A program made the position numbers and the translations under genes. Below are positions 14,695 through 58,560 of a DNA stretch of 64,000 nt, in pieces. The DNA comes from Acidaminococcaceae bacterium. GTDB taxonomy: Bacteria > Bacillota > Negativicutes > Acidaminococcales > Acidaminococcaceae. Under the pieces are notes generated by a model. It ran no database searches. It was not told the DNA's origin and saw nothing but the letters and a program-made list of their open reading frames with translations. How positions within the stretch are numbered: the stretch's first letter is position 1; every line of letters starts with the position of its first letter. Location of the stretch: positions 1-64,000 of the forward strand of contig JAFQZL010000053.1 of NCBI GenBank assembly GCA_017405945.1, in the 5' to 3' direction.

Positions 14695-14781
14695 GTTATT
14701 GTTAAGAGAAGACAGTAACAGGTCTTGAACTTACCGTAGCCTTTTAAAATTTTGCGTAAGAAAGAAAAAAGAATTTTGAGA

Positions 14782-14801
14782 GGCAGCCTTTCCGGGCTGC
14801 C
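14782..14801 (+). promoter_or_regulatory. Hairpin in the ftsL-murE gap
   Basis: GGCAGCC (14782-14788) pairs with GGCTGCC (14795-14801), a 7-bp stem with a 6-base loop, 10 bases before the GGGGGAG ribosome site of murE. The tract after it is T-rich but broken. It may slow transcription or shape murE translation. Confidence 0.35.
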
Positions 14802-14826
14802 ATTTCAATTTAAGGGGGAGTGTGCT

Positions 14827-17678: not shown

Positions 17679-17759
17679 AGAGCATTGTAAGTTTAGTTAG
17701 TGACGTTGTTTGGAAATGCAGGATATTCTGGCGTATTCCGAATAAATCAGGAAAGTCTG

Positions 17760-18758
17760 GTGCACAGTATGGATGTAACGGGCATGCAGGTCGCAGGGGC
17801 GCTGCTGACGTCCCTGATCGTATGCGCAGCGTTGGGACCGGTGCTGATTCCGGTCTTACATAAATTGAAGTTTGGGCAGAGTATTCGTGATGTAGGCCCG
17901 GCCAGCCATATGAAAAAAAGCGGTACGCCCACCATGGGGGGCATTATGATGCTGTGCGGGCTGTTTGTGGCCATGGTGGTATGGAACCGTTTTACACCGC
18001 TGATCATCATTGCTTTTGTACTGACCTTCGGCCATGCGCTGATAGGCTTTCTTGACGATTATATCAAGGTCGTGATGAAACGGAATCTGGGGCTTACGGC
18101 AAAGCAGAAGCTGGCCCTTCAGATTGCGCTGGCAATGGCGTATATTTATTATGTGGAGCAGCACGCGGGAGCATCCGGTACGGATTTGTGGATTCCGGGA
18201 ACTTCTGTTACTGTCCATATGGGCTGGCTGTATTACGTATTGGTACTGCTTCTTCTGGTGGGAACCACGAATGCGGTGAACCTGACGGACGGACTGGACG
18301 GACTGGTTTCCAGTGTCAGTATACCGGTTATGGCTGCCTATGCGTGTATATCCTGGCAGGCAGGCGAAGGGGATTTGTGCCTGCTTGCCGCGGCTGTTTT
18401 GGGAAGCTGTCTGGGGTTTCTTGTCTGGAACCATCATCCTGCAAAAGTCTTTATGGGAGACACGGGCTCCCTGGCTTTAGGCGGCGCAGTAGCGGCGCTG
18501 GCTCTGCTGACCCATACAGAGATTCTGCTGGTTATTATAGGCGGAATGTATGTATTGGAAGCATTGTCTGTTATTATCCAGGTTGCATATTTTAAACATA
18601 CAGGGGGAAAACGCGTCTTCCGTATGACGCCGATCCATCATCACTTTGAACTGGGCGGATGGAAAGAAACAAAAGTCGTGACAGTGTTTACGCTGGCAAG
18701 CTGTGTTTTCTGTCTGGCCGGCTTAGGGCTGTGGTTCCTGGGAAAGGGTGGCATGTAA
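17760..18758 (+). CDS. mraY: Phospho-N-acetylmuramoyl-pentapeptide-transferase
   Basis: MraY moves phospho-MurNAc-pentapeptide onto undecaprenyl phosphate, making lipid I at the inner membrane. About ten transmembrane segments are visible, with LKFGQSIRDVGPASHMKKSGTPTMGG near the start, GFLDDYIKV, NLTDGLDGL and the MTPIHHHFEL histidine motif. The start is uncertain: GTG 17760 has AGGA seven bases upstream (332 residues); ATG 17769 is the next choice. Codons further upstream to 17700 would add an atypical tail. Confidence 0.93.
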   Translation: MHSMDVTGMQVAGALLTSLIVCAALGPVLIPVLHKLKFGQSIRDVGPASHMKKSGTPTMGGIMMLCGLFVAMVVWNRFTPLIIIAFVLTFGHALIGFLDDYIKVVMKRNLGLTAKQKLALQIALAMAYIYYVEQHAGASGTDLWIPGTSVTVHMGWLYYVLVLLLLVGTTNAVNLTDGLDGLVSSVSIPVMAAYACISWQAGEGDLCLLAAAVLGSCLGFLVWNHHPAKVFMGDTGSLALGGAVAALALLTHTEILLVIIGGMYVLEALSVIIQVAYFKHTGGKRVFRMTPIHHHFELGGWKETKVVTVFTLASCVFCLAGLGLWFLGKGGM

Positions 18759-18759
18759 T

Positions 18760-20112
18760 ATGTCCGGTATTCAAAATGTAATGGTATTTGGCGCCGGTAT
18801 CAGCGGTAAAGGCGCGGCAGCGGAACTGGCAGAGCAGGGCAGGACGGTTTATCTGTATGATGATACCCCGAAAAAGCTGGAGCCTGAATTAGAAGAGTCG
18901 CTGGCGCGTCATGGAGGAGGATTTGTCTGCGGAAACCTCGCGGAGACATTGGGGCGGGTGCAGCAGGTCGTATTATCGCCGGCGGTGCCCGGGAACCTTC
19001 CGGAGTTACAGAAAGCCCGCGAAAACGGCATCGAGGTCATCGGCGAAATCGAACTGGCCTGGCGCAATTATGCCGGACATATGGTGGCTATCACCGGAAC
19101 CAACGGAAAAACCACCACAACGACACTTGTCGGCGAAATGCTGAAGACGCTGCCGGTAAAGACTGCGGTGGGCGGCAATATCGGCCGGGCCCTTTCCAGG
19201 GAAGTAAAAGGGCTGGATAAGAACAGCTGGGTAGCAGCGGAAGTTTCCAGTTACCAGCTGGAAGGCATCAAAGAGTTCAGCCCGGATGTGGCGGCGGTCC
19301 TGAATCTTACGCCGGACCACATGGAGCGCCACAAAACCATGGAGGAATACGCCCGTTGTAAACGGAATATTTTCATTAATCAGACAGCCAGACAGATTAC
19401 AGTTTTGAATTATGACGATCCGGAAGTCCGAACCTGGGGGAAATATTCGAAAGGCACATTGTGCTATTTCAGCCGCAAGGCGGCCTTGCCGGAAGGCGTA
19501 TATATGAAAGACGGCAGTTTCTTCATCAGATGGAAGAATACGGTGAAAGAAATCTGCCACAAGGACGAACTGCAGATTTTTGGCGCCCACAATGAAGAGA
19601 ACGTACTGGCAGCCATTGCCTGCGGCTTTTTTGCAGGAGTGGCTCCGGAAAAAATGCGGGAGACCCTGCTGGGGTTTAAGGGTGTGGAACACCGTATCGA
19701 ATACGTGACGACAATTCACGGCGTCCCGTACTATAATGATTCCAAGGCGACTAATACGGATTCTGTGATCAAAGCGCTGGAAGCGTTTCCCAGCGGACAT
19801 ATCATCCTGCTGGCGGGCGGCCATGACAAGATGACCCCGCTGGAACCCATGATGAACCTGATCCGGGAGAAAACAGACCTGCTGATTCTTCTGGGCGAGG
19901 CAAAGGAACGGTTTTACAAGGCTGCCACGGCGGCCGGTGTTGAGAATATAGTTATAGCGGACTCTTTTAAAGATGCAGTTGACACGGCTTATGCCAGGGC
20001 GAAAGCCCCCCAGGTGGTGCTGCTGTCTCCGGCCTGTTCCTCCTTCGACATGTTTCACGACATGGGTGAACGGGGACGTTATTTTAAGAAACTGGTGCAC
20101 GAACTGAAATAA
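18760..20112 (+). CDS. murD: UDP-N-acetylmuramoylalanine--D-glutamate ligase
   Basis: MurD adds D-Glu to UDP-MurNAc-Ala. The 450-residue protein has an N-terminal Rossmann motif (VFGAGISGKGAA), the ATP loop GTNGKTT at 113-119, NLTPDHMERH, the HNEENVLAA segment and the YNDSKATNTDS motif. ATG 18760 lies one base after the mraY stop with GGAAAGGGTGG upstream. In most Firmicutes ftsW/spoVE follows; here murG follows after 26 bases. Confidence 0.96.
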   Translation: MSGIQNVMVFGAGISGKGAAAELAEQGRTVYLYDDTPKKLEPELEESLARHGGGFVCGNLAETLGRVQQVVLSPAVPGNLPELQKARENGIEVIGEIELAWRNYAGHMVAITGTNGKTTTTTLVGEMLKTLPVKTAVGGNIGRALSREVKGLDKNSWVAAEVSSYQLEGIKEFSPDVAAVLNLTPDHMERHKTMEEYARCKRNIFINQTARQITVLNYDDPEVRTWGKYSKGTLCYFSRKAALPEGVYMKDGSFFIRWKNTVKEICHKDELQIFGAHNEENVLAAIACGFFAGVAPEKMRETLLGFKGVEHRIEYVTTIHGVPYYNDSKATNTDSVIKALEAFPSGHIILLAGGHDKMTPLEPMMNLIREKTDLLILLGEAKERFYKAATAAGVENIVIADSFKDAVDTAYARAKAPQVVLLSPACSSFDMFHDMGERGRYFKKLVHELK

Positions 20113-20138
20113 AAAAGCAGAATGGAGATCAGAATCAG

Positions 20139-21251
20139 ATGAAGATCATCGTATCCGGCGGCGGTACCGGAGGACACATCTATCCGGCGCTTACCATTGC
20201 GGATACAATCAAAAAACTTTATCCGGAAGCGGAGATACGTTTTGTGGGTACTGCCCACGGGCTGGAAAAAGATCTGGTGCCCCGGGCGGGTTATCCCATT
20301 GATTTTATCGATGTGCAGGGGTTCAGGCGGAGCCTGGGCGTGGACACGTTCCGCTCGGTATATAAGCTGTTCACCGGTCTCGGAGACGCAAAAAAACTGC
20401 TGGCAGTCCATAAACCGGACCTGGTCATCGGCACGGGCGGTTATGTATGCGGACCTGTCGTATTTCTGGCGGCTATGCAGGGAATCCCGTCCTGTGTACA
20501 GGAGCAGAACGCCCTGCCGGGAGTGACCAACAAGATATTGTCTCATTTTGTCAAAAAAATATTTCTAGGATATAAAGAAGCGGGCAAATATTTTAAGGGA
20601 AAAGCTCAAAAGGTTTTTACAGGCAATCCGGTCCGGGAAGAAATTTTAAGCCATACCCGCTGGGAAGCGCTGAAGTTCTTCCAACTGGATGTGAATAAAA
20701 AGACTATCCTGATCGCCGGTGGCAGTCTGGGTGCCGCTTCCATCAATAAAGCCGCGTTCCGGTTGGAAAAGGACCTTTCCGGGAGGGACGATGTGCAGAT
20801 ACTGCACGCCACCGGAAAAAATAATTACGAAGCCTATATGAAACAGGTTGAGGAAGCGGGGGGCTTTAAACCGAATATCCACGTATCTCCTTATTTGTAC
20901 GATATGCCCATGGCGCTGGCGGCAGCCGATCTTGCGGTATTTCGCGCCGGTGCTATCGGTCTTGCGGAACTGACGGCAAAAGGGATTCCGTCTATCCTGG
21001 TACCGTTCCCGTATGCAACGGGAAACCATCAGGAATTCAATGCCAGGGCGCTGGAATCAGCCGGCGCGGCACAGGTGATTTTAGACAGGGAACTGACAGG
21101 AGAGGCTCTTCACGAAAAGGTTGAGCGTCTGCTGCTTCACGATAAAGAACTGCGGCAGATGCAGCAGGCTGCGGCGAAGGCCGGACGGCCGGAAGCCGCT
21201 ATGGAGATAGCAAAACAGGCAACAGCTTTGATAAATACAAGGGAGCCCTGA
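20139..21251 (+). CDS. murG: UDP-N-acetylglucosamine--lipid I N-acetylglucosaminyltransferase
   Basis: MurG makes lipid II on the inner face of the membrane. The 370-residue GT-B protein has the glycine-rich SGGGTGGHIYPALTIA start, the second GGSLGAASIN loop, and the donor-site stretch FRAGAIGLAELTAKGIPSILVPFPYATGNHQEFNA. All match the family closely. An 85-base gap with a GTGCCGG/CCGGCAC inverted repeat (21264-21294) separates it from murC. Confidence 0.97.
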   Translation: MKIIVSGGGTGGHIYPALTIADTIKKLYPEAEIRFVGTAHGLEKDLVPRAGYPIDFIDVQGFRRSLGVDTFRSVYKLFTGLGDAKKLLAVHKPDLVIGTGGYVCGPVVFLAAMQGIPSCVQEQNALPGVTNKILSHFVKKIFLGYKEAGKYFKGKAQKVFTGNPVREEILSHTRWEALKFFQLDVNKKTILIAGGSLGAASINKAAFRLEKDLSGRDDVQILHATGKNNYEAYMKQVEEAGGFKPNIHVSPYLYDMPMALAAADLAVFRAGAIGLAELTAKGIPSILVPFPYATGNHQEFNARALESAGAAQVILDRELTGEALHEKVERLLLHDKELRQMQQAAAKAGRPEAAMEIAKQATALINTREP

Positions 21252-21336
21252 CAGCATAACTACGTGCCGGAAGATCTGGCAGAACGGCCGGCACGGAATA
21301 ATATAAGGGAACCCGGAAGAGGCGGAGGTAAAGCAG

Positions 21337-22722
21337 ATGTTGGACAAGTACAGACATATCCACTTTATCGGTATTGGAGGAGCCGGTATGAGCGCGTTGG
21401 CTTATGTGCTGGTAAAACGCGGCTTTGATGTGACAGGCTCTGATCTGCAGGCCGGGCATATGGCCTATGAGCTGGCGGAAGCGGGTGCTTTGGTCTATAT
21501 GGGGCATGATGATTGCCAGATTGAGGGAGCAGAGGCCGTGGTTGTTTCCTCTGCCATTCCCAAAACAAATCCGGAACTGGTTGCTGCCCGTAAGAAGAAT
21601 ATTCCTGTTTTACACCGCAGCGATGTGCTGATGGCGCTTCTGAACGGCGAGGGAACAAAAGGGGTCGCTGTAGCGGGCGCCCACGGAAAAACCACAACCA
21701 GCGCCATGATAGGTGTAATTGCGGCCGAAGCGGGTATCGATCCGACGGTTGTGATTGGCGGTGATGTGACGGCGCTGGGGGGGAATGCGCGAAACGGTGA
21801 AAGCGAATGGGTCGTGGCGGAGGCGGACGAAAGCGACGGCTCATTCTTAAAATTTACCCCGTTTATTCCTGTTATTACCAATATTGAAGATGACCATCTG
21901 GACCATTACGGGACGGAAGAGAATATTTATCAGGCCTTTAAAGAATATCTTTCCCACATGAGAGACGGTGGGACAGCTGTTCTGTGCCTGGATAACGAAA
22001 AAGTGCGCCGCCTGTCGGAAGAAACGGAACTCCCTTTTATTACCTATGGTTTGACAGAGGACTGTGATTTTTGCGCAAAGAATATCCGGCACAGTGTGGA
22101 AGGTACTGACTATGACCTGTATCACGGGGGAGCGAAACTGATTTCTGTACATCTGATCGTGCCGGGCAGGCATAATGTGCTGAATTCGCTGGGGGCTTTT
22201 GCAGCTGCCTCCCTGATGGGGATCTCGCCGGAGATCAGCGTGGCTGCACTGGCAAAATTCTCCGGAGCCAAACGCCGTTTTGAAACAAAAGGCAAGGAAA
22301 ACGGGATCTGGATCGTGGACGATTATGCGCACCATCCTACCGAGATCATGGCAACGCTGCAGGCAGCGAAAGAAACCGGGGCAAAGCGGATCGTATGCGT
22401 ATTCCAGCCCCACCGGTACAGCCGGACGAAGCTGTTATACGAAGAGTTCTGCAAATGCTTTACTAACTGTGACAAACTGATTCTGACTCATATTTATTCT
22501 GCCGGCGAGGCTCCGGTTCCCGGTGTCAGCGGCAGGGGGCTGGCGGAATCCATAAAAGTCACTACGGGGCAGGACATTATGTATATTGACAGTTTTTCCA
22601 GAGTGGAAGAACATCTCTTTAAAAACTGCAAAGAAGGCGACCTGGTCATCACCATGGGGGCCGGGGATGTGTTCCGGATCGGTGAAGAACTGGTAAAAGA
22701 GTTCAGGCAAGTGGAAAAATAA
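21337..22722 (+). CDS. murC: UDP-N-acetylmuramate--L-alanine ligase
   Basis: MurC starts the stem peptide by adding L-Ala to UDP-MurNAc. The 461-residue protein opens with HFIGIGGAGMSALA, has the ATP loop GAHGKTT at 114-120, EADESDGSF, NIEDDHLDHYG and DDYAHHPTEI motifs, and the FQPHRYSRT segment. GGCGGAGG precedes ATG 21337. MurB, which often follows or is fused nearby, is not in this window. Confidence 0.97.
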   Translation: MLDKYRHIHFIGIGGAGMSALAYVLVKRGFDVTGSDLQAGHMAYELAEAGALVYMGHDDCQIEGAEAVVVSSAIPKTNPELVAARKKNIPVLHRSDVLMALLNGEGTKGVAVAGAHGKTTTSAMIGVIAAEAGIDPTVVIGGDVTALGGNARNGESEWVVAEADESDGSFLKFTPFIPVITNIEDDHLDHYGTEENIYQAFKEYLSHMRDGGTAVLCLDNEKVRRLSEETELPFITYGLTEDCDFCAKNIRHSVEGTDYDLYHGGAKLISVHLIVPGRHNVLNSLGAFAAASLMGISPEISVAALAKFSGAKRRFETKGKENGIWIVDDYAHHPTEIMATLQAAKETGAKRIVCVFQPHRYSRTKLLYEEFCKCFTNCDKLILTHIYSAGEAPVPGVSGRGLAESIKVTTGQDIMYIDSFSRVEEHLFKNCKEGDLVITMGAGDVFRIGEELVKEFRQVEK

Positions 22723-22736
22723 AGTGGGGACATAAT

Positions 22737-23678
22737 ATGGATAAAGACAAAACAGTGGCCGTCGTGATGGGCGGTCCTTCGGCGGAAGAACAGATATCCC
22801 TGTCCACGGGCCACGCTATGGCGGAAGCGCTGCGGGATAAAGGGTATAACGTGAAGGAAATCCGTCTTGTGCCGCATAATTTTTCCGAACAGGTAAAGGA
22901 AAGCGGCGCGGACGTGGTAGTGATTGCCGTGCACGGCTTATACGGCGAAGACGGAAGACTGCAGAGCGCATTGGAGATGATGGGGATTCCCTATACAGGT
23001 TCCGGGGTTCTGGCCAGTTCCGTAAGCATGAACAAACTGACTGCCAAACGGGTATTCCTGGGCAGCAACATACCCACGCCGGATTATATTTTCCTGCATC
23101 GCCGGGACCGGGGAAAACAGGATATGATCAAAGCCATCACGGATAAATTTTCCCTGCCGGTGGTTGTAAAACCTGTATCCCAGGGGAGTTCGCTGGGCGT
23201 TACCATCGAAAAGGAGATTTCCGGTCTTCAGAAAGCATTGGACGATGCATTTCAATATGATGAAGAAGTGCTGGTGGAGGAGTATATCGCCGGACAGGAA
23301 ACCTCTGTATGCATGATGCGCTTAAAAGACGGTTCCGTGAAAGTCTGGCCTGTGATTCTGATCCATCCCCACGCGGAATGGTACGATTTTAATGCCAAGT
23401 ATTCGGTGGGCGGTGTGGACCATCTGGTGCCGGCGCCGTTGCCGGACGAGATTACCCGGACACTGAAAGATATTTCCGTGAGGGCTTTTGAAGTATTGGG
23501 GTGTGCCGGAGTGGCCCGTACGGATTGTATGGTCGACAAAAACGGCAAATGTTATGTGCTGGAGATGAATACAGTTCCCGGCATGACGCCTACCAGCCTG
23601 GTGCCGGACGCTGCCAGGGCGGAAGGTACGGATTTTGGCGACTTATGTGAAATGATATTGGAAACAGCGCATCTGTAA
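22737..23678 (+). CDS. ddl: D-alanine--D-alanine ligase
   Basis: An ATP-grasp ligase that makes the D-Ala-D-Ala dipeptide for MurF. The 313-residue protein has VVMGGPSAEEQISLSTG at the start, VHGLYGEDGRLQ, the ATP-grasp elements VVKPVSQGSSLGV and VEEYIAGQE, and the metal site LEMNTVPGMTPTSLVP at the end. It lies 14 bases from murC. The active-site pattern is the ordinary alanine type; I see no sign of a lactate-adding (vancomycin-type) enzyme, though the deciding residue cannot be settled by eye. Confidence 0.95.
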   Translation: MDKDKTVAVVMGGPSAEEQISLSTGHAMAEALRDKGYNVKEIRLVPHNFSEQVKESGADVVVIAVHGLYGEDGRLQSALEMMGIPYTGSGVLASSVSMNKLTAKRVFLGSNIPTPDYIFLHRRDRGKQDMIKAITDKFSLPVVVKPVSQGSSLGVTIEKEISGLQKALDDAFQYDEEVLVEEYIAGQETSVCMMRLKDGSVKVWPVILIHPHAEWYDFNAKYSVGGVDHLVPAPLPDEITRTLKDISVRAFEVLGCAGVARTDCMVDKNGKCYVLEMNTVPGMTPTSLVPDAARAEGTDFGDLCEMILETAHL

Positions 23679-23711
23679 GGAAATTATACGCATTTCCCGG
23701 AGGCTTTGAGT

Positions 23712-24482
23712 ATGGGATCTTCTCAGGAAAGATTGCAGGCAGACCATCGCCGCAAACGGCTGAATGATATAGTATGGCTTCTAGGCCTGCTGCTTTTTGC
23801 CGCTCTTGTGGTTGCCGGCTGGAAATATGTGCACCGGCCGGACTTTGCCTATGGGGATATTGTGATTCATGGAAGCAAACAGTTCACCCGGGAAAAGATA
23901 TTGCAGATGGCAGGCGTCAGGAAACCGGTCAATCTGTTCCTGGTTTCCAAAAACAAAATAGTGACGGCGCTGCAGGGGGATGTGAGAGTGGAGAGCGCGG
24001 AAGCCCATTATGATTTTCCTTCTGTGCTGAATGTGTATATCAAAGAACGGAACCCCGTTTTATATGTAATAACGGACTACGGCAATTATGCCAAGCTTGA
24101 TAAGACGGCGCTGGTCATGGAAATGACAGACGGAATCAAAGACGCGTCCATTCCCCGTCTGGCAGGCGTTGCCTGCGGTAATGCGTTTATCGGGGACATC
24201 CTGCAGAACGATATGATCCGGGAAGTGTTGAAATTTATGGATAAGCTGCAGCCGGACGCAAAGGAACAGATTGCGGACCTGAGCGTGGATGCGGAAAAGA
24301 AACTTATCGTACACATGCGGTACGGCTTTCCGGTTATTTTGGGCTCTGTCAACGAACTGGCGGGGAAAGCGGAACTGTTCATGACTGTCTTTAACGAGAT
24401 GAAAGGGAAAAAGGTACAGATCGAGTATATGGACCTGCAGTACAGCAAGCCCTTTGTCCGCCTGAGGCAGCAGGAACAATAA
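23712..24482 (+). CDS. ftsQ: Cell division protein FtsQ/DivIB (POTRA domain)
   Basis: A 256-residue bitopic divisome protein: a short cytoplasmic part, one transmembrane helix (about 19-37) and an outer POTRA domain starting at DIVIHGSKQFTREKILQMAG. A beta domain follows and ends near LQYSKPFVRL. ATG 23712 has CGGAGG eight bases upstream; a TTG at 23706 is too close. It binds FtsL and FtsB. Position between ddl and the DUF881 gene matches the divIB slot in Bacillus. Confidence 0.88.
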   Translation: MGSSQERLQADHRRKRLNDIVWLLGLLLFAALVVAGWKYVHRPDFAYGDIVIHGSKQFTREKILQMAGVRKPVNLFLVSKNKIVTALQGDVRVESAEAHYDFPSVLNVYIKERNPVLYVITDYGNYAKLDKTALVMEMTDGIKDASIPRLAGVACGNAFIGDILQNDMIREVLKFMDKLQPDAKEQIADLSVDAEKKLIVHMRYGFPVILGSVNELAGKAELFMTVFNEMKGKKVQIEYMDLQYSKPFVRLRQQEQ

Positions 24483-24496
24483 AGTAAAACCGCTGA

Positions 24497-24525
24497 TTGC
24501 CCAAATCCATGATTTGTATTATTAT
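24497..24525 (+). promoter_or_regulatory. Possible promoter upstream of the DUF881 gene
   Basis: TTGCCC (24497-24502) and TATTAT (24520-24525) are 17 bases apart in an AT-rich gap after ftsQ. The -35 box is imperfect. It would give sbp and its partner a promoter separate from the mur genes. Confidence 0.35.
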
Positions 24526-24599
24526 ATTAAATATACAGGAGAGCAAAAACTGCAGATATGCCTGTTGACGGAGCAGGTTGCAGAAAAGAGGAATTACAG

Positions 24600-25412
24600 A
24601 TGATGACAGTAAAAAATAAGCATACCAGAATATTAATATTTCTGGTATGTATTATTTTGGGCTATATGATCACTATGCAGCTGAGATCACATAATCAGTA
24701 TCAGAACCTGGCGATACAGCGCGCGGAAGATTTAACGGTCCGCCTGAAGGAAGTGCAGGCTGACAGGGATAAGCTGGCAAAAGAACTGGACGAGTACAGG
24801 GCAGGCCGTATATCCGGCGCGGCGCAGAAAGAGATGGACGACCTGAAAGCCCGGGCGGGCGAGACGGAAATGGAAGGAAAGGGGATCATCTTTACCCTTG
24901 ATGACAGCAAACAGGCTGCCAAAGCCGGGGAAAACAAAAATCTTTATATCATCCATGATGAAGATCTGCTGCGTGTGGTAAATGAATTGCGCGCCGCCGG
25001 GGCGGAAGCAATTTCCCTGAACGGGCAGCGGCTGATCGGTTCCAGCGAAATCCGCTGTGTCGGTCCCACAGTCCTTGTCAATGAGAGAAGGCTGGCAGCG
25101 CCTTTTGTCATTTCGGCCATCGGTAACCCCCAGACACTGGATAGTTCCCTGAAATTGCGCGGCGGCGTGATTGAAAACTTTAAATTCTGGGGCATCAGGG
25201 CGGATGTCGTACAGTCAGATAAAGTCAGGGTTCCCGCGTTTAAAGGAAACCGGACTTTTGAGTTTGCCAAACCGGTGTCCGAAGAAGAAAAGAAGGAAGC
25301 GGGCCGGCCCGCAACGGTTGACGAAGGAACTTCTGAGAATAAACCTGGCGCAGATGCAGAAAAATCCGAAGGCCGGCAGGCCTCGCAGAAGAATGCCGGA
25401 GGTGCCCAATGA
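24600..25412 (+). CDS. DUF881 family membrane protein (YlxW/YlxX-like)
   Basis: A 270-residue protein with one N-terminal transmembrane helix (about 9-24), a coiled coil (about 35-80), then the DUF881 domain marked by GKGIIFTLDDS, IHDEDLLRVVNELRAAGAEAISLNGQRL and an FVISAIGNPQTLDSSLKLRGG stretch. The C-terminus is a charged, disordered tail. In Bacillus two such genes (ylxW, ylxX) sit between divIB and sbp; here there is one. Function is not known. It overlaps sbp by four bases. Confidence 0.88.
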   Translation: MMTVKNKHTRILIFLVCIILGYMITMQLRSHNQYQNLAIQRAEDLTVRLKEVQADRDKLAKELDEYRAGRISGAAQKEMDDLKARAGETEMEGKGIIFTLDDSKQAAKAGENKNLYIIHDEDLLRVVNELRAAGAEAISLNGQRLIGSSEIRCVGPTVLVNERRLAAPFVISAIGNPQTLDSSLKLRGGVIENFKFWGIRADVVQSDKVRVPAFKGNRTFEFAKPVSEEEKKEAGRPATVDEGTSENKPGADAEKSEGRQASQKNAGGAQ

Positions 25413-25738
25413 TTTATGCAATTATCGGCCTGATTTTTGGCATTGTCGGAGGTGTTCTGACCCCGGGCTTTATACCTAAAATTTACGCGCCCTATTTTTC
25501 CGTGGCGCTGATGGCGGGACTGGATACCGCTTTCGGAGGACTACGGGCGGCGATGGAGGGCGAATACGATAACCAGGTGTTCATTTCCGGTTTCGTTGTC
25601 AACATTCTCCTGGCGGTGTTTTTCTGTTACGCAGGAATCAAGATGGATATCGACTTCTACCTGATTGTAATCCTGGTATTGGGCATGCGGATTTTTAACA
25701 ATCTGGCTATTATCCGCCGGTTGTACCTGAAAAAATAA
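25409..25738 (+). CDS. sbp: Small basic protein Sbp family (DUF1290) membrane protein
   Basis: A 109-residue membrane protein with three hydrophobic segments: IYAIIGLIFGIVGGVLTPG at the start, FISGFVVNILLAVFFCYAG in the middle, and YLIVILVLGMRIFNNLAII near the end. This is the DUF1290 pattern, and the site between a DUF881 gene and ftsZ is the sbp slot of Bacillus. Its role is not established. In Bacillus ftsA follows; here a 159-base gap leads straight to ftsZ. Confidence 0.9.
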   Translation: MIYAIIGLIFGIVGGVLTPGFIPKIYAPYFSVALMAGLDTAFGGLRAAMEGEYDNQVFISGFVVNILLAVFFCYAGIKMDIDFYLIVILVLGMRIFNNLAIIRRLYLKK

Positions 25739-25850
25739 GAATAATTATGAAATATGTTTGAACTCCGTAAAGTGAAGCAGGAAAAAATACTTTTTATAAA
25801 GAATTTCTTTTCAGCTTTTACATAATGTGCTTTTTTATTTTTGAATTGGA

Positions 25851-25859
25851 TGGTATAAT
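25851..25859 (+). promoter_or_regulatory. Extended -10 promoter of ftsZ
   Basis: TGGTATAAT (25851-25859) is a perfect TATAAT with the TGn extension. No good -35 box is seen at 17 bases; a T tract lies there instead. The start would be about 33 bases before ATG 25898, giving ftsZ its own promoter. Confidence 0.6.
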
Positions 25860-25897
25860 AACAACAGGTAGTATTATTAAGTAGGGGGATACCGAAT

Positions 25898-27055
25898 ATG
25901 TTTGAAGATATCATGAATAATCCGGCCGATTCCGGCATCACTCCGGAAACGCTGGCGAAGATCAAAGTCGTTGGTGTAGGCGGCGGTGGTAATAACGCGG
26001 TAAACCGCATGATCACCTCCGGGCTGCAGGGCGTGGAGTTTATCGCGATTAACTGCGATGCCCAGGCTCTGCTGCTCTCCAAAGCGCAGAACCGTATCCA
26101 GATCGGGGAAAAGCTGACCAAAGGTTTGGGCGCAGGCGCCAATCCGGAAATCGGGCAAAAGGCCGCGGAAGAATCCAGAGAACTCCTGGTTGAACAGTTG
26201 CGTGGCGCGGACATGGTCTTCGTGACCGCAGGTATGGGCGGCGGCACGGGAACCGGCGCGGCTCCCATCGTGGCGGAATGCGCACGGGAAGCCGGCGCGC
26301 TGACTGTCGGCGTAGTGACCAAGCCGTTTTCCTTTGAAGGCAAACGCCGGATGAACCAGGCGGAAGCCGGTATCGTGAATTTAAAAGACCGTGTAGATAC
26401 GCTGATTACCATTCCCAATGACCGCCTGCTGCAGGTCATCGACCGCAGGACCAGCATGCTGGACGCGTTCCGCATTGCTGACGATGTGCTTCGTCAGGGC
26501 GTTCAGGGCATTTCCGATTTGATTTCCGTTCCCGGTCTGATCAACGCCGACTTCGCGGACGTAAAGACCATTATGTCCAATGCAGGATCCGCTTTAATGG
26601 GGATTGGTACCGCCAAAGGCGAAAACGGCGCAGTGGCAGCTGCGGAAGCGGCCATCAAGAGCCCGTTGCTGGAAGCATCCATCGAAGGGGCCCGGGGCGT
26701 ACTGTTCAATATTACCGGCGGCAAGGATCTGTCCCTGTTTGACGTTACGGAAGCGTCGAACATCATTACGGAAGCCGTGGATCCGGACGCCAATATTATC
26801 TTTGGCGCGGTCATCGACGAAAAACTGGATGACGAGATCCGCGTAACCGTGATAGCAACCGGCTTTAACGGGAAGAACCCGGTACTGACCGGACAGGCGC
26901 CTATCAAGATGCCCGGCTCAAAAGTTACGCCGCGCCCGGCGGCTCCCAAACCGGCTCCTAAACCGGTACAGCCGGCTCCTGCACCGGGACCGAAACCTAT
27001 CATTAATCCTGCACCATTCAGTTCAACTCCGGAGGTTCCGCCCTGGATCCGCTGA
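25898..27055 (+). CDS. ftsZ: Cell division protein FtsZ
   Basis: FtsZ is the tubulin-like GTPase that forms the division ring. The 385-residue protein has [14 protein letters not shown], the GTP-binding GGGTGTG loop at 114-120, and the T7 catalytic loop [12 protein letters not shown] proline- and alanine-rich linker (about 340-370) leads to the C-terminal peptide [10 protein letters not shown], which binds partners such as SepF. It has its own promoter and a terminator after it. No ftsA lies upstream. Confidence 0.97.
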
Positions 27056-50666: not shown

Positions 50667-51248
50667 ATGGGCAAGAAAAGGTTTTTAGACCGTATTTCGG
50701 ATGCATTGGGATTATATGATCCGGACGATCCGAACCGTGTAATGGAAGAAGACGAAGAAGAACTTGAAGAGGAAGAAGCAGCGGAGAAACCGGCAGGAAA
50801 AGGGTTTCCGAAAGCGGTCCGCCCTGCCCCTGTCCCTGCAGTGAAAGAAGATCCGGTGCCGGTTCCCGTGGAAAAGGAAGTCAAAGAGAAAAAGCCCGGG
50901 CTTTTGTCCAGGGTCCGTAAGAATAAAAAGGAAAACCGCACAATCCAGGTGAAGACTACAACGGAAGTCCGCGTGGTGGTGATTGAGCCTTCCAGTTTTG
51001 ACGATTCCCAGAAAGTCGCTGACTTTTTGCGGAACGACCAGCCTGTGGTGGTTAATTTTGAAACTACCGAACCGGCTGTGCGGAAACGCATGACAGATTT
51101 TATCAGTGGAACCATTTACGCGCTGAACGGTACAATCCGTACCATTGGCCCGAACATTCTGGTCTGCGCGCCGCGCAATGTGGATATTGACGCGGAGGCC
51201 GAGGTGTACGGCGGAGAAAGAGGGGGGTCCTCATGGCCGAAAAATTGA
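50667..51248 (+). CDS. sepF: Cell division protein SepF
   Basis: SepF tethers FtsZ to the membrane and aligns its filaments. The 193-residue protein has a short N-terminal helix (about 3-15) that may bind the membrane, a long acidic then proline-rich linker (about 18-90), and the DUF552 core (about 95-175) with VVIEPSSFDDSQKVADFLRNDQPVVVNF and ISGTIYALNGTIRTIGPNI. No ftsA is found near ftsZ here, so SepF may be the main FtsZ anchor. It overlaps proC by 16 bases. Confidence 0.94.
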   Translation: MGKKRFLDRISDALGLYDPDDPNRVMEEDEEELEEEEAAEKPAGKGFPKAVRPAPVPAVKEDPVPVPVEKEVKEKKPGLLSRVRKNKKENRTIQVKTTTEVRVVVIEPSSFDDSQKVADFLRNDQPVVVNFETTEPAVRKRMTDFISGTIYALNGTIRTIGPNILVCAPRNVDIDAEAEVYGGERGGSSWPKN

Positions 51249-52060
51249 ATTTGAAAAAACTGGCGTTTATCGGCGGCGGTGCCATGGGTGAAGCGATTAT
51301 CAAAGGCATCACCGGAGCAAAGCTGATAGATCCGGCGCTGATTTACGTGGGAGCCCACCGACAGGAACGGGCGGACTATCTGCACGGGACTTATGGTGTA
51401 AACGGTCTGACAGATAATTGTGAAGCGGTCAGGGATGCGGACATGATTGTGCTGGCAATCAAGCCTCAGATGGTGGACAGTGTGCTGCGCAGCGCGCTGG
51501 TTTCCGCAGTGCCTGGCAAGGCAGTAATCCTTTCCATCATGGGCTCCGTGACGATCGACAAAATAGCCGGAATATTTAAAGGACATCCCGTGATCCGTAC
51601 CATGCCCAACACGCCGCTGGCAGCAGGAGCCGGCATGACGGCTATCGCACCCGGTAACGGGGTGAGTGAAGAAGCAGTGAAAACCGCGGAACAGATTTTC
51701 GGCTGCTGCGGGGAAACACTGCGGATTCAGGAAAAGGATATTGAAGCGGTCACCGCTGTCTCCGGTTGCGGACCGGGATACGTATATGTGATGATTGATG
51801 CGTTGGCGGATGCGGGTGTCATGGCTGGTCTGCCCCGGGCGGCGGCCATCAAGCTGGCGGCCCAGACTTTCGCCGGTTCGGGAAAGATGGTGCTGGAGAC
51901 GGGCAAACACCCTGCTGTGCTGCGTGACATGGTAACATCTCCCGGCGGCACTACCATTGCCGGCATCAAAGCGCTGGAAAACGGCGCGGTACGTGGCGCG
52001 TTGTATAACGCGGTGCAGGCTGTGTTGAATCGCAGCGAAGAATTAAAGGGAAACAAATAG
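51233..52060 (+). CDS. proC: Pyrroline-5-carboxylate reductase
   Basis: ProC makes proline from pyrroline-5-carboxylate with NAD(P)H. The 275-residue protein has the Rossmann motif FIGGGAMGEAIIKG near the start, LAIKPQM, RTMPNTPLAAGAGMTAI and the C-terminal signature MVTSPGGTTIAGIKALENGAVRGAL. It starts inside the end of sepF, with AGGGGGG upstream. It sits where ylmG lies in Bacillus. Confidence 0.96.
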   Translation: MAEKLNLKKLAFIGGGAMGEAIIKGITGAKLIDPALIYVGAHRQERADYLHGTYGVNGLTDNCEAVRDADMIVLAIKPQMVDSVLRSALVSAVPGKAVILSIMGSVTIDKIAGIFKGHPVIRTMPNTPLAAGAGMTAIAPGNGVSEEAVKTAEQIFGCCGETLRIQEKDIEAVTAVSGCGPGYVYVMIDALADAGVMAGLPRAAAIKLAAQTFAGSGKMVLETGKHPAVLRDMVTSPGGTTIAGIKALENGAVRGALYNAVQAVLNRSEELKGNK

Positions 52061-52062
52061 GC

Positions 52063-52848
52063 ATGGCAGACAGAGATAAAATACTGCGCTACTTCAAAGC
52101 GAGTGGGGACGAAGAGCTGGCTGCACAGCTGGTGGATTTGGCGGAAGCTGCCCGAAAAACTGCCAGGTATAAGGTTAGCGGGTTTCTGGATCCCCATGGC
52201 AGGAATGTAGCTGAAATCGTGGCGGCAAACTTTGAAGGCATCCGTCTGGAAACTGACGGCGGGTTTGCCAATGCTGAACGGTGCAAGACTGCTTTTGTGG
52301 CTGAGGATTCCTACGGAACACCGGATTTTGGGATTGTATGCTATCTTGTTACCTGGGATAAACGGTATTATACGTTAGGCCACAGGGATATCCTGGGCGC
52401 GTTCATGGGCATGGGCTGTGAACGTGAGATTCTTGGGGATATCGTACTGGTACCGGAGGGCGCCCAGTTCGTGGCAGACAAAGCCTTTGCAAATTACATT
52501 GAGAGCAACCTGACCCAGGTTGGCGCGGCTTATGTGAGCCTGCAGCAGATTGGCAGGGAGGAATTGCAGGCAAAGGAAGAAAAGGTTAAAATCATTTCGG
52601 CTACCGTGGCGGCCTTGCGGCTGGATGCGGTGGCAGCAGCCGGGTACGGCATCAGCCGGTCCCGGATGGCAGAAGAAATAAAGAGCCAAAACGTGAAACT
52701 GAACTGGAAAGAAGCGAAGAGCGCTTCCCAGTCCGTTGCCGAAGGCGATGTAATGTCGTTTTGCGGCAGAGGCCGGGTAGAACTTTCGGAAATCCGCGGC
52801 ACGACGAAAAAAGGTCGCTTCGCGATTACGCTGAGACGGTACATATAA
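52063..52848 (+). CDS. ylmH: YlmH family S4-domain RNA-binding protein
   Basis: A 261-residue protein with an N-terminal YlmH domain (GFLDPHGRNVAEIVAAN, LGHRDILGAFMGMGCEREILGDI) and a C-terminal S4 RNA-binding domain (LRLDAVAAAGYGISRSRMAEEIKSQNVKLNWKEA). In Bacillus, YlmH binds ribosomes and has been linked to quality control of stalled nascent chains. It follows proC by two bases and precedes divIVA. Confidence 0.93.
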   Translation: MADRDKILRYFKASGDEELAAQLVDLAEAARKTARYKVSGFLDPHGRNVAEIVAANFEGIRLETDGGFANAERCKTAFVAEDSYGTPDFGIVCYLVTWDKRYYTLGHRDILGAFMGMGCEREILGDIVLVPEGAQFVADKAFANYIESNLTQVGAAYVSLQQIGREELQAKEEKVKIISATVAALRLDAVAAAGYGISRSRMAEEIKSQNVKLNWKEAKSASQSVAEGDVMSFCGRGRVELSEIRGTTKKGRFAITLRRYI

Positions 52849-52946: not shown

Positions 52947-54665
52947 ATGCTGACACCATTGGACTTAAATGGGAAGACATTTTCCAAAGGTTTTCGTGGT
53001 TACGACACAGACGAAGTCAATCAGTTTTTTTCTCAGATCTCCAGAGATTACGAGCGTTTATATCAGGATAACGTGGAGTTAAAGGATTCCGTGGAGCGGG
53101 TCAGCGCCAAGCTGGAATATTACCAGCGGATGGAGAGCACCATGCAGAGCACACTGGTTGTGGCTCAGGAAACGGCGGATGAAGTTAAGAAGAGCAGTCT
53201 TCAGAAGGCACAGGTGCTGACCAGGGAAACTGAATTGGCCTGCAATAAACAGAAAGAGGCAGCGGTTTCGTTCTGCAATAAACTGCGGGCAGATACGGAA
53301 GCTGAAATTACCCGTATGAAATCCGAAGCGGACGCCTATGCGGAGAAAGTCCGGAAAATGGCTGATGAATATGCGTCCAAAACCCGGGGAGAAGCGGACG
53401 ATTACGGAAAGTCCACCCGTACTGAAGCGGATTCCTATGCAACGGGTCTGCGCAGCAAAACCGATTCTTCGACCAGCAAGCTGCGGGAAGAGACGCAGTC
53501 ATTCGTAAATAAGATGAAAAGCCTGGCGGAAATTGAAGTGGCCAGGATGAAAGTTGAAGCGGAAGATAGCTGCAAGTCCCAGCTGGCAAACAGCCGGGAG
53601 CAGGCACGTACCCTGGCAGCGGAAGCTTCAGCCCATGCCAACCAGGTTATGGCCGATGCGAACCAGCAATCCCAGAATATCGTGGCGGAAGCCACCCAGA
53701 AGGCTCATGAGATGATTGCCAACGCGCAGAAGCAGTCTCAGGATATGATAGCGGAAGCACGGCAGAAATCCCAGGATATGATGGCGGAAGCGAATCAGAA
53801 GTCCCAGACCATGATTACCGAGGCGACACAGAAATCCCAGCAGATGGTAGCGGAAGCAACGGAACAAAGCCGGTCTCTGATCCGTGAGGCGACGGAACGC
53901 AGCCAGAAGATGGTATTTGTGGCAGAAACCAAAGCGGCTGCGGCCATGGACACATACAATACCATGGTGAGCAAGGCAAATTCCCAGAGCAAGCAGCTGA
54001 AGAGTCTGCTGCAGTCCCAGTTGTCCTTATATGATAATTTTGAGGCAGAATATGCTGTTGATCAGCTGGTGCAACCCAAGCTGCAGGCAGTCAGGAAAGC
54101 AGAACCGGTTCTGGAAACGCAAGCAGAGCCGGTGAAGGCGGAGACTGTGGTGGAAGCTGAGAATAAAGCAGCAGCGGAGGATATGGAAAAAACCGTTACA
54201 GCGGCTGCGCCTGCCGGAGAAGTCGTTGTGGAAGAACCGGAGGTTAAACCTGCGGCAGAACCTGTGGAGGAGGAACCGTCAAAGGAAAATTTTCCTGAGG
54301 CAGCCGAAGCAAATGCGGCGGCTGCTTCAAAAGAAAAATCCGTATTATCGGATAAAGACAGCGCACCGGCGGATGAGAGCCCGGACCTTGCTGAAGATGA
54401 CAGGATTTCCGTATTCAAAAACAATGGGTATGGCGCGACTCGTAAACCTCTTTTCTCAAGATTTAATCCCCGTGGGCCCATGGTTTTCAACCGAAATGGC
54501 TTTCCCCGGAAGAATGCGGACCTGCGTGTCGCCCTGAGTGAACTGCAGAAAACGGCGGACTCAGAGCCTCAGAACGCAGAGGCAAAAACAGAAGAGGCGG
54601 GAGAAACTGTGAAACCGGAAGCGCCAAATGCGGTTCCGGAGCCGGAAGGGAACAGGGAATCCTGA
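52947..54665 (+). CDS. divIVA: DivIVA-domain protein with long hendecad-repeat coiled coil
   Basis: DivIVA marks curved membranes and division sites. The N-terminal domain is canonical: LTPLDLNGKTFSKGFRGYDTDEVNQFF (about 2-28), with the GFRGYD membrane loop. Then comes an 11-residue-period coiled coil from about 128 to 323, in which the last eight units read like AEATQKSQxMI. Residues 380-572 are acidic, Ala/Glu/Pro-rich and disordered. At 572 residues it is over three times Bacillus DivIVA (164). AGGAGG precedes ATG 52947. It lies between ylmH and ileS as usual. Confidence 0.9.
   Translation: MLTPLDLNGKTFSKGFRGYDTDEVNQFFSQISRDYERLYQDNVELKDSVERVSAKLEYYQRMESTMQSTLVVAQETADEVKKSSLQKAQVLTRETELACNKQKEAAVSFCNKLRADTEAEITRMKSEADAYAEKVRKMADEYASKTRGEADDYGKSTRTEADSYATGLRSKTDSSTSKLREETQSFVNKMKSLAEIEVARMKVEAEDSCKSQLANSREQARTLAAEASAHANQVMADANQQSQNIVAEATQKAHEMIANAQKQSQDMIAEARQKSQDMMAEANQKSQTMITEATQKSQQMVAEATEQSRSLIREATERSQKMVFVAETKAAAAMDTYNTMVSKANSQSKQLKSLLQSQLSLYDNFEAEYAVDQLVQPKLQAVRKAEPVLETQAEPVKAETVVEAENKAAAEDMEKTVTAAAPAGEVVVEEPEVKPAAEPVEEEPSKENFPEAAEANAAAASKEKSVLSDKDSAPADESPDLAEDDRISVFKNNGYGATRKPLFSRFNPRGPMVFNRNGFPRKNADLRVALSELQKTADSEPQNAEAKTEEAGETVKPEAPNAVPEPEGNRES
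53328..53915 (+). repeat. 33-bp coding repeats for 11-residue coiled-coil units in divIVA
   Basis: The encoded units of 11 residues run from residue 128 (ADAYAEKVRKM, ADEYASKTRGE, ADDYGKSTRTE) to 323 (AEARQKSQDMM, AEANQKSQTMI, TEATQKSQQMV). There are about 18 units with a phase slip near residue 225. The DNA units from about 53652 are the most alike, suggesting recent expansion. Confidence 0.8.
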
Positions 54666-54666
54666 T

Positions 54667-55353
54667 ATGATCATTCTTGTACGACACGGTGAGGCGACGC
54701 ACCATACGGAGCATTTTACCGGCGGCTGGACGGATTCGAACCTGACGGATAAAGGGCGCAGGCAGATCGAGGCGGCAGCGGAAAAACTGGCGAAGGATTT
54801 TTCCGGCAGGATGCCGCGTTTTCGGATTCTGTGCAGCGATTTGAAACGGGCCCATGAATCGGCGGTTATCTTTGCAGAAAAACTGGGCGTAGAAAAAGTG
54901 GAGGACTTTGCTTTCCTCAGGGAAAAGAATAACGGAAAAGCAGCGGGACTGAAGGAAAGTGAAGCGAGGAGCATCTACTGCCCGCCTCCTACGCTAAAGG
55001 AACTGGATCACAGGAATTATCCCGGCGGGGAGACACGGCGTGAGTTTTTCCGGCGTTCTGTGGACGGACTGCATGAAGCGGCGGACTGGGACAAGGAAAA
55101 TCTGATCATCATTTCCCATAAGGGGACGATACAGAATATTATCTTCGACTGGCTGGGGATGGACATTGAGGACGTGAACCGTCTGAATTTTTCGGTGGAT
55201 ATCCTGCCTTCCAGTTTGTCCGTGCTGGGCATCAACAAATGGAAAGAACATGCTATATTCCGTCTGAACGACCTGTCTCATTTACAGGCACAGGAAGGAT
55301 ACGGCATCCATAAATTTAAGCTGGGCGCTATTGACGCGCTTTATCAAAAGTAG
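54667..55353 (+). CDS. Histidine phosphatase family protein
   Basis: A 228-residue phosphoglycerate-mutase-like phosphatase. The catalytic RHG motif is in ILVRHGEATH (about 4-13), with SDLKRAHESA and the second histidine in IIISHKGTIQNI. The substrate cannot be told; cobalamin or sugar phosphates are possible in this broad family. ATG 54667 overlaps nothing but lies one base past the divIVA stop. It sits between divIVA and ileS, and the ileS promoter lies in its last codons. Confidence 0.88.
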   Translation: MIILVRHGEATHHTEHFTGGWTDSNLTDKGRRQIEAAAEKLAKDFSGRMPRFRILCSDLKRAHESAVIFAEKLGVEKVEDFAFLREKNNGKAAGLKESEARSIYCPPPTLKELDHRNYPGGETRREFFRRSVDGLHEAADWDKENLIIISHKGTIQNIIFDWLGMDIEDVNRLNFSVDILPSSLSVLGINKWKEHAIFRLNDLSHLQAQEGYGIHKFKLGAIDALYQK

Positions 55354-55419: not shown

Positions 55420-55651
55420 AAAAAGACAGTAACCTGCAGAAATGGTAAAGCGAACCGGGGAGGGTGGAAGCCCGGACGAGTATTTCGGCAGTGTGAAGAT
55501 CACTTTGGAGCAGCCGGCTGAACATAATAGTAAGCATGGACGGATTGGTGCACGTTATCGCGCTGAACGAGTGGCAGAAGATTTCTGTCATGAGGGTGGT
55601 ACCACGGGTTAAGTATAGTCTCGTCCCTTTTTGGACGGGACTTGTTTTTTT
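55420..55651 (+). promoter_or_regulatory. T-box riboswitch (tRNA-Ile sensing) of ileS
   Basis: The T-box motif AGGGTGGTACCACGGG (55593-55608) lies just before a terminator at 55617-55651. Upstream is a structured leader with a GAGTA element (55479-55483) and a likely Ile specifier ATC at 55499-55501. Uncharged tRNA-Ile should pair with the specifier and T-box, break the terminator and allow ileS transcription. The left end is approximate. Confidence 0.9.
55617..55651 (+). terminator. T-box-controlled terminator
   Basis: AGTCTCGTCC (55617-55626) and GGACGGGACT (55633-55642) form a 10-bp stem with one G-U pair, followed by TG and seven T. It competes with the T-box antiterminator. Confidence 0.92.
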
Positions 55652-55701
55652 ATATGGGAAAAAATTTTTCTTGCACAGAAACGAATCAGGAGGAGAAGAA
55701 A

Positions 55702-58491
55702 GTGGATTACAGCAAGACTCTGAATTTACCGGAAACCGAGTTTCCGATGCGGGGCAACCTGCCGAAACGCGAACCGGAATTTTTAAAATTCTGGGAAGAA
55801 AACAAGATTTATGAAAAGAAACAGAAACTGCATGAAGGGCATACCAAATGGGTGCTCCATGACGGACCTCCCTATGCCAACGGCCATATCCACATGGGGC
55901 ATGCGCTGAATAAAGTATTGAAAGATATCATCATTAAATATAAATATGCCAGGGGCTATGATACTCCGTATATTCCCGGCTGGGATACGCACGGCATGCC
56001 GATTGAACATGCCTGTCTCAACGCCATGGGTGTGGACCGCCACAGCATGACGGCGCTGGACCTCCGGGCAAAATGCGAGGCCTATGCCCACAAGTTTATT
56101 GATATCCAGCGGGAAGAATTCAAACGGCTGGGCGTGCTGGGCGACTGGGATCATCCCTATCTGACCCTGCAGCATTCTTTTGAAGCGGAGCAGATTCGCG
56201 TATTTGGCGCCATGGCCAACAAAGGTTACATTTATAAAGGACTGAAACCGGTTTACTGGTGCCCCCATTGCGAAACAGCTCTGGCGGAAGCAGAAATTGA
56301 ATACGCGGACCAGAAGACACCGACCATCTATGTCAAATTCCCTCTGACCAAAGACAATGGCAAAACTCCGGAAGGCGTGAACGGCCGGCCGGTTTATGTT
56401 GTAATCTGGACCACCACGCCCTGGACCATTCCCGGCAACATGGCGGTGACGCTGCATCCTGATTTTGAGTATTCTTTTGTGGAAAACGGCGACGAAGTGT
56501 TGTTCATGGCCAGCGAGCTGGTCGATAATGTGGCGGCGGAAGCAGGCCTGACCCTGGGCAACGTGCTGGGCACGGTAAAAGGCCGTGAAATGGAATTTGC
56601 GGAATGCGAGCATCCGTTCCCGGAATACAATCACCGTAAATCCATGATTTGTCTGGCAGACTATGTTGACCTGGAAACCGGTACCGGCTGTGTACATACT
56701 GCCGGCGGTCACGGCGACGTGGACTATCTGACCTGCCTGAAATACAACGTACCTATTGTCTGCCCCGTAGATGAACAGGGCAGGATGACGGCGGAAGCCG
56801 GCGAGCGCTTTAAAGGCCTGTTTGTGTTTGACGCCAATGTACCGATCCTGAAATATCTCGCGGAACTGGGATTCCTGCTGGGTAAAAAGAATATCCATCA
56901 CCAGTACGCCCATTGCTGGCGTTGCAAGAACCCCATCATCTACCGGGCTACCGAGCAGTGGTTTGCTTCCGTGGACGGATTCCGCGATGCGGCCCTGCAT
57001 GCGATTCATAATGAAGTAAAATGGATTCCCGCCTGGGGCGAACCCCGTATCCATAACATGGTGGCAGACCGTCACGACTGGTGTATCAGCCGCCAGCGCG
57101 TCTGGGGCGTGCCGATCCCCATCTTCTATTGTGAAGAATGCAGCGAGCCGCTGGTAAATGAAGCGACGATTGAAAAAATTGCCAATATTTTTGAAGAAGA
57201 GGGCAGTGATGCCTGGTGGAAATATGAAGCGGACCAGCTGCTGCCGGAAGGGACGAAATGTCCCAAGTGCGGCCACACCCATTTCCGCAAGGAAAAAGAT
57301 ATCATGGATGTGTGGTTCGATTCCGGGTCCAGCCATATGGGCGTCATGACCAAACGTCCGGAACTGGAATGGCCCTGCGCCATGTATCTGGAAGGCAGCG
57401 ACCAGCATCGCGGCTGGTTCCAGTCTTCCCTGCTGACATCTGTGGCAGTGACCGGGCATGCACCGTATCATTCTGTACTGACCCACGGGTATGTAGTAGA
57501 CGGCGAAGGCCGCAAGATGTCCAAGTCTGTAGGTAACGTGATTGCGCCTCAGGATATCATCAAGCAGTATGGCGCGGATATCGTCAGGTTGTGGGTGGCC
57601 TCGGCCGATTACAAGCAGGATATCCGTATCTCCAAAGAGATTCTGAAACAACTGTCGGATGCGTACCGCAAGATCCGCAATACCATCCGCTACATTATGG
57701 GAAACACCAGTGATTTTGATTATGCAACGGACAAAGTGGCCTTTGCCGATATGCAGGAACTGGACCAGTGGGCGCTGATGCGTCTGCAGCAGCTGAAAAA
57801 AGAAGTGGAAGCTGCTTACGAAGCTTACGACTTCCATGTGCTGTTCCATGCCGTTCATAATTTCTGCACGGTAGAAATGTCCAGTTTCTATCTGGATATC
57901 ATTAAGGATCGTCTGTATGTATCCAGACCGGATGATCCGGCCCGCCGCAGTGCCCAGACTGCCATGTATGAGATTCTGAACGATCTGATCGTCATGCTGT
58001 CCCCGGTGCTGAGCTTTACCATGGAGGAAGTATGGCAGTTCATGAAGAAACCGGCCAATGCGCCGGAATCCGTGCAGATGCTTCCCTGGCCGGAAGTGAA
58101 GACGAAATACATTGATGAAGCGCTGGAAACCAAATACGATAATTTCATTGCGATCCGCAGTGAAGTGACAAAAGTGCTGGAAGGCCATCGCCAGAACAAG
58201 ACCATCGGTAATTCCCTGGAGGCCAAAGTAGTGCTGTACGCGGAAGGGGAAGCCCTGGAGATTCTGAAGTCTGTGGAAAAAGACCTGCCTGCGCTGATCA
58301 TTGTTTCCCAGGTGGAAGTACATGAAGGCGCCGCGGAAGGAGAAGAAGCCACCGGACGCAATGACCTGAAGGTAACCGTAAAACCGGCTGACGGTCATAA
58401 GTGTGAACGCTGCTGGACCTACAGCGAGAGCGTGGGACAGAATGCAGCCCATCCGGACCTGTGCGAACGCTGCGCAGCAGTGGTGGGATAA
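55702..58491 (+). CDS. ileS: Isoleucine--tRNA ligase
   Basis: IleRS charges tRNA-Ile. The 929-residue class I synthetase has HMGH at 64-67, KMSKS at 605-609, the editing domain with TTTPWTIPGNMAVT, and a C-terminal zinc finger (CERCW, then CERC). GTG 55702 is chosen: AGGAGG (55688-55693) lies eight bases upstream and the N-terminus DYSKTLNLPETEFPMRGNLP matches Bacillus IleS. An in-frame ATG at 55642 lies in the T-box terminator. Length and C-terminal finger point to the ordinary bacterial form. Confidence 0.97.
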   Translation: MDYSKTLNLPETEFPMRGNLPKREPEFLKFWEENKIYEKKQKLHEGHTKWVLHDGPPYANGHIHMGHALNKVLKDIIIKYKYARGYDTPYIPGWDTHGMPIEHACLNAMGVDRHSMTALDLRAKCEAYAHKFIDIQREEFKRLGVLGDWDHPYLTLQHSFEAEQIRVFGAMANKGYIYKGLKPVYWCPHCETALAEAEIEYADQKTPTIYVKFPLTKDNGKTPEGVNGRPVYVVIWTTTPWTIPGNMAVTLHPDFEYSFVENGDEVLFMASELVDNVAAEAGLTLGNVLGTVKGREMEFAECEHPFPEYNHRKSMICLADYVDLETGTGCVHTAGGHGDVDYLTCLKYNVPIVCPVDEQGRMTAEAGERFKGLFVFDANVPILKYLAELGFLLGKKNIHHQYAHCWRCKNPIIYRATEQWFASVDGFRDAALHAIHNEVKWIPAWGEPRIHNMVADRHDWCISRQRVWGVPIPIFYCEECSEPLVNEATIEKIANIFEEEGSDAWWKYEADQLLPEGTKCPKCGHTHFRKEKDIMDVWFDSGSSHMGVMTKRPELEWPCAMYLEGSDQHRGWFQSSLLTSVAVTGHAPYHSVLTHGYVVDGEGRKMSKSVGNVIAPQDIIKQYGADIVRLWVASADYKQDIRISKEILKQLSDAYRKIRNTIRYIMGNTSDFDYATDKVAFADMQELDQWALMRLQQLKKEVEAAYEAYDFHVLFHAVHNFCTVEMSSFYLDIIKDRLYVSRPDDPARRSAQTAMYEILNDLIVMLSPVLSFTMEEVWQFMKKPANAPESVQMLPWPEVKTKYIDEALETKYDNFIAIRSEVTKVLEGHRQNKTIGNSLEAKVVLYAEGEALEILKSVEKDLPALIIVSQVEVHEGAAEGEEATGRNDLKVTVKPADGHKCERCWTYSESVGQNAAHPDLCERCAAVVG

Positions 58492-58528: not shown

Positions 58529-58560
58529 AAAAGCCTGTACTCAATTGGGTACAGGCTTTT
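58529..58560 (+). terminator. Bidirectional terminator after ileS
   Basis: AAAAGCCTGTAC (58529-58540) and GTACAGGCTTTT (58549-58560) form a perfect 12-bp stem. T tracts flank it on both strands, so it can serve ileS and the small converging gene. Confidence 0.9.

Follow-up and report, generated by a model that had tools for sequence, protein, structure and literature searches.

The window, a 64,000-nucleotide stretch of DNA, carries a gene for a 572-residue protein in which a DivIVA domain is followed by a long repetitive coiled coil and an extended tail. DivIVA is a membrane-curvature scaffold of poles and septa, and how it assembles is poorly understood. The locus raises the question of whether this protein is a true DivIVA with an enlarged stalk or another kind of filament former, and of what its added length would mean. 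An earlier note, made by reading the letters and translated open reading frames, had described it as a giant DivIVA in which a straight stalk of hendecads leads into a long, disordered tail, and the present analysis supports that description.

Locus and family identity

The gene is preceded by a good ribosome-binding site and is the only DivIVA copy in the genome (Table 1). The Pfam DivIVA model (PF05103) matches residues 2-134 with an E-value of 2.7e-31 and 108.7 bits against a cut-off of 28. The gene order, ylmD-type (PF02578), ylmE-type, sepF, proC, ylmH, divIVA, histidine phosphatase and ileS, identifies the sepF-ylmH-divIVA-ileS region as the usual divIVA locus, with proC replacing ylmG. 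Since near-identical loci belong to Succiniclasticum ruminis DSM 9236 and other rumen Succiniclasticum genomes, the host is assigned to Succiniclasticum (Negativicutes, Acidaminococcaceae). Among the neighbours, proC (51233-52060) occupies the usual ylmG place between sepF and ylmH and overlaps the end of sepF, while the histidine phosphatase gene (54667-55353) separates divIVA from ileS, with a likely ATG 1 base past the divIVA stop codon. A 16-nt inverted repeat with directly adjacent arms (58529-58560), resembling a terminator hairpin, is located just 3' of ileS.

Table 1. Features of the divIVA gene and its neighbours, with positions in the window
Feature	Residues	Position	Strand	Remark
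sepF		50667-51248	+	neighbour
ylmH (S4 domain)		52063-52848	+	neighbour
divIVA gene		52947-54665	+	572 aa; ATG start, TGA stop
DivIVA head	1-68	52947-53150	+	RGYDxxEVN motif, heptad helix
Hendecad stalk	69-344	53151-53978	+	+20 hendecads vs Bacillus
Eight near-identical hendecads	235-322	53649-53912	+	near-copy units
Array part with whole-hendecad gain or loss in relatives	268-311	53748-53879	+	
Ordinary DivIVA C-terminal end (SKQLKSLLQSQLSLY), retained behind the repeats		53979-54041	+	
Variable acidic linker	380-497	54084-54437	+	mostly predicted disordered
Conserved basic module (RKPLFSRFNPR...FNRNGFPRKNADLRVALSELQK)	498-538	54438-54560	+	putative docking element
ileS		55642-58491	+	downstream neighbour

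The head displays the hallmarks of the family. The RGYDTDEVN motif at residues 17-25 corresponds to the GYDxxEVD-type motif of the DivIVA domain, and a heptad coiled coil follows it immediately, as evident from the period of 3.45-3.46 in the N-terminal helix. The distance from the GYD motif to the stalk anchor is 43, invariant among relatives, and the head, with 98% identity in the main Succiniclasticum clade, is the best-conserved part of the protein. At the stalk end, the family C anchor (the conserved C-terminal end of DivIVA) is present and in register; judged by sequence, the protein appears to retain the oligomerisation end of DivIVA.

Bacillus and Listeria DivIVA share with it the head motif, the heptad N-terminal helix, the stalk register, the C-terminal end and the gene neighbourhood; the window protein differs from them by 20 additional hendecads and by a tail of 200 residues that carries a conserved module. 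Wag31/DivIVA of Actinomycetota is also long, and the NCBIfam Wag31 model matches the window stalk, but with only 77.1 bits against a cut-off of 260. The helix of the window protein is moreover predicted to be continuous from residue 21 to 364, unlike the actinomycetotal form with its disordered insert between head and coil (PMC12393619). For Actinomycetota that paper also reports a coil insert at 285-318, which corresponds to about 3 hendecads. GpsB, a short protein as compared to this one, is matched with 39.6 bits (cut-off 91). Pfam matches to apolipoprotein and HflC were discarded as generic helix matches.

Periodicity and length of the stalk

Self-similarity in residues 128-323, for which hendecads had been claimed, peaks at lags of 11, 22 and 33 (z = 16.5, 14.4 and 11.2 versus shuffles). 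Hydrophobic residues recur here with a period of 3.68, and a heptad component at 3.50 is absent from this range. The hendecad register is even longer than the range first claimed, spanning residues ~75 to 344, and the distance between the anchors accommodates 25 hendecad lengths in the window protein versus 5 in Bacillus. The last eight units are near copies, as had been noticed; neighbouring units are identical at up to 8 of 11 residues and 24 of 33 bases. Register position k is V, I, L, M, F, Y or W in 76% of units, and core position d is alanine in 17 of 25, which agrees with a report that dimeric hendecad rods have cores rich in alanine (PMC9858780). AlphaFold (monomer run, 13 sequences) folds residues 21-364 into nearly one helix, a prediction that weakly suggests a coiled coil.

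The hendecads had further been contrasted with the heptads of ordinary DivIVA. Averaged over relatives, this holds for the heads, which are heptad in all length classes (N-terminal helix period 3.44-3.46), but not for the stalks, where periods of 3.60-3.68 are found from the short DivIVAs onward: 3.60 for a gap of 56, 3.64 for 67-100, 3.66 for 166-232 and 3.68 for 254 or more. The hendecad signal is weaker in the shortest class (gap 56), where the stalk period is 3.50 once alanine is excluded. In ordinary DivIVA the head is heptad and the stalk mainly hendecad-like; the long stalk is an amplified pre-existing unit rather than a new type of coil.

Stalk length was taken as the distance between two profile HMM anchors, the tLvvAQetAeeVk segment and the C-terminal fRtRlrtLLqaQlelL segment. 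It equals 1 mod 11 in all 101 proteins from Negativicutes and named Bacillota, the latter including Bacillus velezensis, Listeria monocytogenes and Paenibacillus. When the survey was widened by 90 loci from the whole phylum Bacillota, the same was true of 178/178 confidently placed DivIVAs, a sample biased to proteins which match DivIVA well. The 15 lengths seen are 45, 56, 67, 78, 89, 100, 166, 177, 210, 232, 254, 265, 276, 287 and 320, equivalent to -1, 0, 1, 2, 3, 4, 10, 11, 14, 16, 18, 19, 20, 21 and 24 hendecads with Bacillus as zero. In 174 of the 178 the C anchor reaches 15 bits or more, and its lead over any second place is at least 10 bits, which excludes a slip by one unit. Eight of the nine weakly placed proteins also obey the rule; a divergent, weakly placed one (L253), with a stalk 4 residues short, breaks it. 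Nine further sequences, truncated or not placeable, were left out of the count. Counting only the 14 changes that connect the 15 lengths, the pattern has a chance of 11^-14, and relatedness is therefore not its source. Hardly any change departs from a multiple of 11, probably since the two coil ends would then lose their common phase. A search of open-access papers turned up no description of this rule. The DivIVA stalk follows a clear evolutionary rule, and the window case is more regular than first reported.

Within Succiniclasticum the stalks exceed that of Bacillus by 18, 18, 19, mostly 20, 21 and 24 hendecads, the window protein having +20. In 13 aligned full-length proteins of the genus, the stalk up to residue ~267 is of equal length throughout, and every indel adds or removes complete hendecads within the last third (~268-311); the copy number is most variable where the units are most alike. 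The +24 form (L005) nests among +20 forms, and its 33-bp units are identical at up to 29/33 bases, the sign of units gained recently in tandem. A deep clade (L011, L013 and L042) has the same stalk length, 276, as the +20 forms of the main clade at a stalk identity of ~50%; its hendecads are more diverged and its tail is short. No relative of equal length without repeats was found. In other Acidaminococcaceae genera the stalks range from +3 to +16.

Tail, assembly and rival explanations

The tail (residues 367-572; 206 aa) contains 43 acidic and 25 basic residues. It had been called disordered and acidic, which is mostly correct, except that it encloses a conserved basic module. AlphaFold predicts disorder for residues 385-499 and 539-572, with a better-predicted island at 500-538. 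Identity in the main clade is 84% for the 41-residue module versus 42% for the linker, and the module is confined to the main Succiniclasticum clade, being missing from the deep clade. A search of solved structures (PDB) gave no convincing match to the module (best Cullin-1, E 1.4), and AlphaFold of the module alone yields only its C-terminal helix (pTM 0.29); it may be a docking element that folds upon its partner. Long DivIVA tails as such, up to ~120 residues, are common in Negativicutes.

These features are best accommodated by a true DivIVA polar and septal scaffold whose stalk has been amplified in register to 25 hendecads, with the oligomerisation end kept and a docking tail added, a reading we regard as probable. 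In Bacillus and Actinomycetota, oligomerisation has been placed in the second, C-terminal coiled coil, and the Bacillus tetramer model is 30 nm long with C-terminal segments joining end to end (PMC7340271, PMC12585849, PMC12393619). The second coiled coil, of about five hendecads in ordinary DivIVAs, would have grown to 25 by tandem gain of 33-bp units. As to oligomer state, localisation and partner, we infer parallel dimers that would bind the membrane through their heads, each forming an almost straight rod ~50 nm long (344 helical residues x 0.15 nm). The conserved C-terminal ends would join the dimers by analogy with Bacillus, and given a tetramer of that design, +20 hendecads would lengthen each dimer by ~33 nm. 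Together the dimers would build a lattice of longer reach at the pole or septum, in which the tail module would dock a partner away from the membrane.

The proposal of a scaffold or ruler fares differently in its two parts. A long scaffold is plausible. A strict molecular ruler, with the hendecad number fixing a distance such as membrane to nucleoid or septum to pole under selection, would suit the quantised stalk length and the constant length of the proximal stalk in the aligned full-length proteins of the genus. It is weakened by the spread from +18 through +19, +20 and +21 to +24 inside this one genus and by the +24 form nested among +20 forms, so that exact length is not fixed, and we consider it quite unlikely. 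The opposite extreme is a neutral expansion, in which 33-bp slippage was tolerated since the register was kept and the added length has no function. The recent near-identical units of L005 agree with it, as does the concentration of copy-number changes where units are most alike. However, the deep and main clades are both at +20 despite their diverged stalks, and every placed member of the genus has at least +18, which makes functionless length improbable.

Equally improbable is a filament former like FilP or Scy, whose hendecad rod self-assembles and whose DivIVA head survives only as a relic. The Streptomyces proteins do join a DivIVA-like head to a long alanine-rich hendecad rod (PMC9858780), and the window stalk shares the alanine at core position d. 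They are, however, described as DivIVA duplicates in Actinobacteria, whereas the window gene, residing in the divIVA locus of a Negativicute, is accompanied by no separate normal DivIVA in the genome. The strong conservation of the head also opposes a relic, and the Scy model scores 35.4 bits against a cut-off of 1040. The lengthening of the Succiniclasticum stalk is apparently independent of that in FilP and Scy.

Division-gene context and significance

The earlier note had rightly observed that the cluster in the window lacks several usual division genes. The dcw order is mraZ, mraW, murE, murF, mraY, murD, murG, murC, ddl, ftsQ-like, DUF881 and ftsZ; ftsI, ftsW and ftsA are absent from the cluster (window 14752-27055), the murD-murG interval being without ftsW and the DUF881 gene (24558-25412) standing in the ftsA place directly before ftsZ. 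Canonical FtsA reaches its cut-off in 0/59 Acidaminococcaceae genomes. This was rejected as a speciality of the family, only 31 of 120 Negativicutes passing the FtsA cut-off. Many Negativicutes encode an FtsA-like protein of 710-970 aa below the FtsA cut-off (e.g. G061:C1:35034-36092), with no match in Acidaminococcaceae.

The classical role of Bacillus DivIVA is the recruitment of MinCD. MinC and MinE gave no match in the 59 Acidaminococcaceae genomes, and recruitment of MinC or MinCD by the window DivIVA is therefore unlikely. The MinC search itself works, since 72 of 120 Negativicutes genomes gave a MinC_C match, and these include members of three further families from the order to which Acidaminococcaceae belong. 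A general tie between stalk length and Min loss was rejected, as Negativicutes families f28-f30 lie outside the families with MinC matches and have short stalks (gap 56).

The stalk could be a quantised, evolvable spacer that changes only in whole-hendecad steps across Bacillota and, in a very long version, lets Min-less lineages such as Succiniclasticum position a tail-bound partner tens of nm from the membrane, an extension we put forward tentatively and think rather doubtful. The 11-residue steps, from -1 to +24 versus Bacillus, identify the structural unit of the stalk, and the mod-11 rule implies that both stalk ends must remain in phase. A natural length series is also available for testing scaffold length against polar and septal assembly.

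MreB exceeds its cut-off in 58/59 Acidaminococcaceae genomes. In one genus of the family, represented by nine genomes (G001-G009) that are mostly ~99% complete, none has a DivIVA match and MreB is present; this genus, as we infer, is possibly a coccoid one such as Acidaminococcus.
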